Origin: Candidatus Aenigmatarchaeota archaeon
GTDB taxonomy: Archaea > Aenigmatarchaeota > Aenigmatarchaeia > QMZP01
Assembly: GCA_003663225.1 (NCBI GenBank)
Contig: QMZP01000009.1
Coordinates: 1-11,667, forward strand
Reading direction: 5' to 3'
Length of the DNA: 11,667 nucleotides
Position 1 is the first letter of the stretch. Each line of letters starts with the position of its first letter. Position numbers and translations under genes: made by a program. This document shows, piece by piece, positions 6,473-6,822 of the stretch. The notes beneath the pieces are model-generated. The model was not told the origin of the DNA and ran no database searches. It saw nothing but the letters and a program-made list of their open reading frames with translations.

Positions 6473-6789
6473 GGCAGGGCACCTCGGTGGGCACACGCCA
6501 GAAAACCTGGCTGCCCCGGACGTCTCCTCCATCCTGCTGACCCGCAAGCAGTGTGTCAACAGCTTAGGGCTGCTCACTTTCGGGCACAACGGCTTGCTTC
6601 TTTCGGATTAAGCCGTCACGCTTTCCGTGCCTGACCCGGTTCACTGCAGGCACAGCCCTGCAGGACAGGACTTCTCAGTTGACGAACAGGACCAGATAAG
6701 CTGGCCTGCGCCGCCCTTGGCATTCGGCTCCGCTAAAGACCGTTTCACGGAAAGAGGTGCGGCCTAAACACCCGGCCTAGCCCTGCCGG
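6473..6789 (-). ncRNA. ffs: Signal recognition particle (7S) RNA, with an insert in helix 8
   Basis: Minus-strand sequence matches archaeal SRP RNA. The 5' end has GGGCTAGGCCGGG (6783-6771) and a helix 4 hairpin CCGT-GAA-ACGG. The SRP54 site has GTGAACCGGGTCAGG (6645-6631) on one side and GAGCAGCCCTAAG (6575-6563) on the other. Helix 1 closes the molecule: GGCAGGGC (6787-6780) pairs perfectly with GCCCTGCC (6480-6473). A further long-range helix 5 pairing is GTCAAC with GTTGAC. A minus-strand TATA box (6816-6808) lies 23-26 bp before the 5' end. The RNA scaffolds SRP19 and SRP54 for co-translational targeting to membranes. The normal short loop between GTCAGG-CAC and GTG-AGCAGC is replaced by about 50 nt (see separate entry). 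Without the insert the RNA would be about 272-273 nt. Exact ends are inferred from helix 1. Confidence 0.93.
6578..6622 (-). other. Candidate 44-45 nt BHB-type intron in SRP RNA helix 8
   Basis: The insert lies between CACGGAAA (6629-6622) and AAAGTG (6580-6575). It forms a 12-bp stem (6621-6610 with 6595-6584, including three G-U pairs) with a 14-nt loop. Beneath it, CGG (6627-6625) can pair with CCG (6583-6581). This short helix is flanked by an AAA bulge on the 5' strand (6624-6622) and an AAA/AAAG bulge on the 3' strand (6580-6577), a relaxed version of the 3-nt bulge / 4-bp helix / 3-nt bulge cut by the archaeal tRNA splicing endonuclease. Removing 45 nt gives CAC-GGAA-GTG, the canonical SRP tetraloop hairpin; removing 44 gives CAC-GGAAA-GTG. 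It could instead be a retained extension. Confidence 0.6.
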
Positions 6790-6822
6790 TTTTATTTATG
6801 TCAACGCTATTTAAATCTTATC
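6790..6822. promoter_or_regulatory. Interleaved divergent promoters (SRP RNA / radical SAM gene)
   Basis: TTTATTTAT (6791-6799) is centred 28 bp before the plus-strand ATG at 6823. The minus-strand ATTTAAATA (6816-6808) is centred 23-26 bp before the SRP RNA 5' end at about 6786-6789. Spacer length (33 bp) and layout match the divergent promoters at 1754-1786 and 4410-4444, here pairing an RNA gene with a protein gene. Confidence 0.7.

Follow-up and report, generated by a model that had tools for sequence, protein, structure and literature searches.

The window analyzed here, the whole 11,667-nt stretch of contig QMZP01000009.1 from a Candidatus Aenigmatarchaeota archaeon (GCA_003663225.1), carries an SRP RNA gene on its minus strand. 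The archaeal SRP RNA model RF01857 aligns end to end with positions 6787 to 6473 and scores 112 bits against a gathering score of 96.5, which identifies the gene as an archaeal SRP RNA. The covariance search proposed in the initial annotation hence recovers the insert-bearing gene, and this is the sole RF01857 match in the whole genome, a MAG of 165 contigs that is 63% complete. The gene order is collinear with the model and both termini lie in helix 1, so that the gene is not permuted. A TATA-like box, probably the promoter of the gene, is located upstream; its sequence, ATTTAAATAG, has a single exact match within the window, where 0.03 would be expected. The features of the locus are as follows, in the order of transcription.

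6807 to 6816, minus strand: TATA-like box, approximately 25 nt 5' of the predicted transcript start
6473 to 6787, minus strand: SRP RNA gene (precursor, 315 nt), aligned to RF01857 model positions 1 to 317
6623 to 6787, minus strand: putative exon 1, ending ...CACGGAA
6630 to 6635, minus strand: GTCAGG, 5' half of the conserved SRP54-binding motif (RF01857 alignment)
6625 to 6628, minus strand: central helix, strand 1, ACGG
6622 to 6624, minus strand: bulge 1, AA/A, with the predicted cut between 6623 and 6622
6578 to 6622, minus strand: putative intron, 45 nt, at the helix-8 apical loop
6610 to 6621, minus strand: inner intron stem, 5' strand, 12 bp with 6584 to 6595
6584 to 6595, minus strand: inner intron stem, 3' strand
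6580 to 6583, minus strand: central helix, strand 2, CCGA
6577 to 6579, minus strand: bulge 2, AA/G, with the predicted cut between 6578 and 6577
6473 to 6577, minus strand: putative exon 2, beginning GTGAGCAGCC
6569 to 6574, minus strand: AGCAGC, 3' half of the conserved SRP54-binding motif (RF01857 alignment)

In the RF01857 alignment, a single model position in the helix-8 loop corresponds to 46 nt of the gene. The minus strand reads GTCAGG (6635 to 6630), CAC (6629 to 6627), GGAA (6626 to 6623), 45 extra nucleotides (6622 to 6578), GTG (6577 to 6575), and AGCAGC (6574 to 6569). The distance between GTCAGG and AGCAGC, the two halves of the SRP54-binding motif, is consequently 55 nt, versus 10 nt in most of the relatives read. 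An insert that parts CAC from GTG at the apical loop had been described in the initial annotation, and its coordinates are correct.

The ends of the insert and the adjoining exon bases can be arranged as a bulge-helix-bulge (BHB) motif. Its central helix (6625 to 6628 with 6580 to 6583) contains three of four possible pairs, with A6628 and A6580 mismatched, and is flanked by two 3-nt bulges, as in a strict BHB. Because of this three-out-of-four helix, in place of the 4 bp of a strict BHB, the element was classed as relaxed. The CGG/CCG helix, the relaxed motif, and the 3-nt bulges agree with the earlier description, which had placed an AAA bulge on each strand; the second bulge is AAG instead. 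Beyond the helix lies the previously described 12-bp stem (6621 to 6610 with 6595 to 6584), an uninterrupted run of pairs that includes three G-U and adjoins the BHB without a gap on both sides. BHB elements are cut between the second and third nucleotides of each bulge. This usual rule removes exactly 6622 to 6578 and gives CACGGAA^GTG, with no special cut required, in line with the 45-nt excision proposed earlier to restore CAC-GGAA-GTG. As expected of a relaxed BHB, cleavage of the element, which has the 12-bp stem directly beside it, would thus restore a functional RNA.

The structure of the insert was compared with that of shuffled sequences. With the register fixed, none of 20,000 mononucleotide shuffles of the insert and none of 5,000 dinucleotide shuffles scored as high for central helix and inner stem combined, and neither did any of 1,000 shuffles when the scan was free to choose the junction. 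What these tests measure is structure in the BHB register, and much of this signal would also be expected from a retained stem extension. The central helix by itself is not significant (P = 0.18). RNAfold predicts the 12-bp stem in the isolated 80-nt helix-8 tip, although the folding energy of this tip does not stand out (z = -1.26; equaled or exceeded in stability by 25 of 200 shuffles), and the BHB is absent from the minimum free energy structure of the 105-nt precursor tip.

SRP RNA was found in 126 of the 156 genomes of the same class, the remaining 30 giving no match, and 21 of the 126 genes are at least 284 nt long. The alignment with related SRP RNAs, another check named in the initial annotation, covered all 21 long genes and 59 of the 105 shorter ones; the other 46 were judged by length alone. 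Among the 80 SRP RNAs read, five have inserts at the helix-8 tip, namely that of the window and those of genomes G005 (45 nt), G017 (32 nt), G032 (34 nt), and G055 (18 nt). G005 and G017 belong to the same family as the window genome and G032 to the same order. The inserts vary in length and sequence between carriers, and G022, a genus-mate of G017, has a plain tip. In each of the four relatives, excision would leave a GGAA or GGGA loop on three closing pairs (including a wobble pair in G032). Tips in the shorter genes are ordinary. Of these 59, 56 could be parsed; three closing pairs are present in 53 and a GGAA loop in 39, and the three unparsed tips appear ordinary by eye. Folding of the joined exons with RNAfold gives the tip hairpin in three of the five cases (G005, G017, and G055) and none for the window or G032.

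The pattern of helix-8-tip inserts was also searched for over the genome contigs. Three of the 38 stretches obtained are the SRP RNA inserts of G005, G032, and G017 (L074, L075, and L085, respectively). Two of the remaining 35 were inspected and rejected, since helix 8 of L101 is ordinary and merely followed by another AGCAGC that occurs by chance, and L081 does not lie at an SRP gene; the other 33 lie under bacterial titles. Two of the insert carriers, G005 and G017, have no SRP54 match.

Inserts are also present elsewhere in the SRP RNAs of the class, in the helix-4 loop (G021 and G010), the 5' strand of helix 4 (G029), and the strand 3' of helix 8 (G029, G035, G001, and G025). Away from the helix-8 tip, the junctions were picked by eye ahead of testing. 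Combined by Fisher's method, the five helix-8-tip inserts give P values of 7e-8 with mononucleotide and 2e-6 with dinucleotide shuffles, and the twelve Aenigmatarchaeota inserts give 7e-14 and 4e-11, respectively. The central helix is fully paired (4/4) in 8 of the 12, and AA opens both bulges in 10 of the 12. Not significant singly are G005 (P = 0.10), G032 (P = 0.41), and the G029 insert 3' of helix 8 (P = 0.08). In G001, the register that restores the length has two of four central pairs, and the register one nucleotide longer has four of four.

A scan free to choose the junction was applied to the 24 inserts that the 21 long genes contain. Seven gave P values below 0.05: G000, G001, G055, the helix-4 insert of G029, and those of G120, G111, and G115 in the Alu domain. 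Its top register coincides with the chosen junction in 10 of the 12 inserts, G032 and G001 being the exceptions. For G005 the scan gave a P value of 0.55, and for G032 one of 0.98, with a best register that does not restore the product. The Alu-domain inserts near UGU^AACC measure 35 to 120 nt at six loci of family f6 (L042, L105, L106, L107, L109, and L110), in three of which the scan found BHB-like registers that restore the UGU^AACC consensus. The products equal to the class consensus, CCTGT^AACC, are those of G041 (P = 0.065), G115 (P = 0.028), and G114 (P = 0.13). G111 and G120 were rejected as introns of this kind, since their products fail to restore UGU^AACC despite good scan scores. 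The scan resolved no intron register in G112, G128, G129, G044, or G084. The long inserts of G128 and G129 (L108 and L111 among the recorded loci) lie near helix 3.

Three further inserts were found in another DPANN phylum, that around a Woesearchaeota-titled record, from which 371 genomes were drawn and 328 have an SRP RNA match. Among the best-scoring 150 matches, three SRP genes exceed 300 nt, a count that covers this top part of the ranking and is not a rate. Their inserts (L166, L167, and L168) are 30 or 49 nt long and have fully paired central helices (4/4), with cuts that would fall inside the SRP54-binding motif (P = 0.002, 0.0005, and 0.046, with the junction chosen by eye). The spliced products would read exactly GGTC^AGG in G395, GTC^AGA in G228, and GCC^AGA in G383. 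The strongest argument for removal of these inserts is that an insert within GGTC^AGG or its variant would break the motif if kept.

The window genome appears equipped for splicing. It encodes a tRNA splicing endonuclease (EndA) of 398 amino acids that matches the ARMAN-2 enzyme (PDB 4fz2) over residues 9 to 398 (E = 3.6e-102) and is, judged by this match, of the three-unit ARMAN-2 type. The check for an EndA gene and its type suggested in the initial annotation was thereby answered; the three-unit enzyme considered there is present, in a host that belongs to Aenigmatarchaeota and not to an ARMAN-like lineage (Micrarchaeota), the possibility raised there. Relaxed substrate recognition is described for the ARMAN-2 EndA in PMC12397907. 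An RtcB gene (C55:2533-3801) covers the whole family model, so that the predicted EndA and RtcB would provide the permissive nuclease and the ligase that a relaxed BHB calls for. The SRP54 M domain is encoded as well. Among 15 tRNA-model matches, ARAGORN reports introns of 17 to 87 nt in seven. In a BHB scan of these introns, tRNA-Asp, tRNA-Val, and tRNA-Lys have four of four central pairs and tRNA-Asn has three of four, so that a three-out-of-four helix is not exceptional among the introns of this genome; for the remaining three, no BHB register was convincing. The tRNA-Lys intron (C61:4344-4504), at 87 nt the longest of the seven, contains extra stems.

Taken together, positions 6622 to 6578 on the minus strand very probably constitute an intron of the relaxed-BHB kind, 45 nt long, that interrupts the SRP RNA gene. 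Before splicing, the tip of helix 8 would run on into the BHB, with the exon CGG paired to the intron CCG, AAA and AAG bulged out, and the 12-bp intron stem stacked beyond. The three-unit EndA would cut AA/A and AA/G, after which ligation of the exons by RtcB would restore CAC-GGAA-GTG and allow SRP19 and SRP54 to bind. We infer that the segment is excised from the SRP RNA by such cleavage and ligation and that the unspliced RNA would be non-functional.

An intron is favored over an extension, the two readings offered in the initial annotation, because four relatives share this architecture at the same site and further relatives have BHB-like inserts elsewhere in SRP RNA, and because EndA, RtcB, and intron-bearing tRNAs are all found in the host genome. 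RNA expansion segments are common, and a lineage-specific expansion whose stem is kept in the mature RNA would be compatible with the present data, since the insert forms a clean stem that stacks onto helix 8. Such a retained extension would, however, destroy the ordinary short tip seen in the 59 shorter SRP RNAs of the class. It would also have to account for tip inserts that occur in just 5 of the 80 genes read, vary in length and sequence, and are missing in a genus-mate, and comparable inserts elsewhere split GGTC^AGG. Retention is possible for the window alone and unlikely given a family of inserts at several sites; overall we regard it as an improbable explanation.

The fragmented state of the MAG raises the question of an assembly or binning artifact or an SRP RNA pseudogene copy. 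This is very improbable, given a single, full-length RF01857 match above the gathering score, a TATA-like box in position, and same-site inserts in other genomes. The insert also coincides with the helix-8-tip ligation site of the permuted Thermoproteus tenax SRP RNA, as described by Plagens et al. 2015 (PMC4731332), which could point to processing into a circular or permuted RNA. The window gene is collinear with the model, however, with both termini at helix 1; cutting would therefore release an intron from between two exons and would not make the mature RNA circular, and we consider this alternative scarcely credible. A simple intron remains the preferred reading.

To our knowledge, the few stable RNAs with archaeal BHB introns are tRNA and rRNA, and SRP RNA would join them if the present reading is true. 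BHB introns also occur in archaeal mRNA, and those of rRNA and mRNA likewise place the motif outside tRNA, but in other host genes. The insert resembles archaeal tRNA introns in its length, its BHB geometry, and the expected involvement of EndA and RtcB; it differs in that it interrupts an SRP RNA, which has no tRNA body to guide the enzyme. At 45 nt, it is also too short for a homing endonuclease gene, unlike many BHB introns, which often carry one according to PMC6125680.

The closest known system is the permuted SRP RNA of T. tenax and T. uzoniensis, presented in PMC4731332 and also, for Thermoproteus, in PMC7758197. In both systems the tRNA splicing machinery acts on the SRP RNA (by inference in the window), and EndA-type BHB processing at the helix-8 tip restores, or would restore, the apical loop. 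In Thermoproteus, however, the leader and trailer of a permuted gene form the BHB and the RNA becomes circular, whereas the window has an internal insert in a collinear gene. The initial annotation had seen here a mirror case and evolutionary intermediate, an idea that agrees with Plagens et al. 2015, who think an ancestor with simple BHB introns plausible. The inserts reported here would, if truly introns, be candidate cases of that ancestor. The passages of PMC4731332 considered here report no simple BHB introns in SRP RNA, and term searches gave no mention of SRP in the available text of PMC6125680 and none of SRP RNA, 7S RNA, or signal recognition in the available main text of PMC7714728. 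In a literature search conducted mostly outside subscription journals, none of the papers listed reports an archaeal SRP RNA intron by title or abstract opening.

More generally, we think it probable that EndA/RtcB introns recur in the SRP RNA genes of DPANN archaea, at several sites, that SRP assembly in the carriers depends on splicing, and that helix-8-tip introns represent the predicted intermediate toward permuted circular SRP RNAs. The sites covered by this proposal are the helix-8 tip, helix 4, the strand 3' of helix 8, UGU^AACC in the Alu domain, and GGTC^AGG. Annotation of DPANN SRP RNAs may overlook or misfold intron-bearing copies. The system also poses a testable question, namely, whether a three-unit EndA cuts a substrate that is not a tRNA and whose central helix has 3 bp.

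Some rtcB genes of the genomes surveyed appear to be interrupted themselves. In G014 and G011 (L170 and L169), rtcB is split over two frames near LPDMHWG...GLPMGAVSAFD. Removal of 31 nt in G014, in a BHB-like register with three of four central pairs, would give GLPDMHWGYGLPMGAVSAFD, so that the gene for the ligase may itself contain an mRNA intron; in G011 no BHB register is clear. The rtcB genes of G025 (L173) and G013 have very long open frames (1016 and 924 amino acids, respectively), in which the RtcB match falls in separate pieces, possibly owing to an intein.
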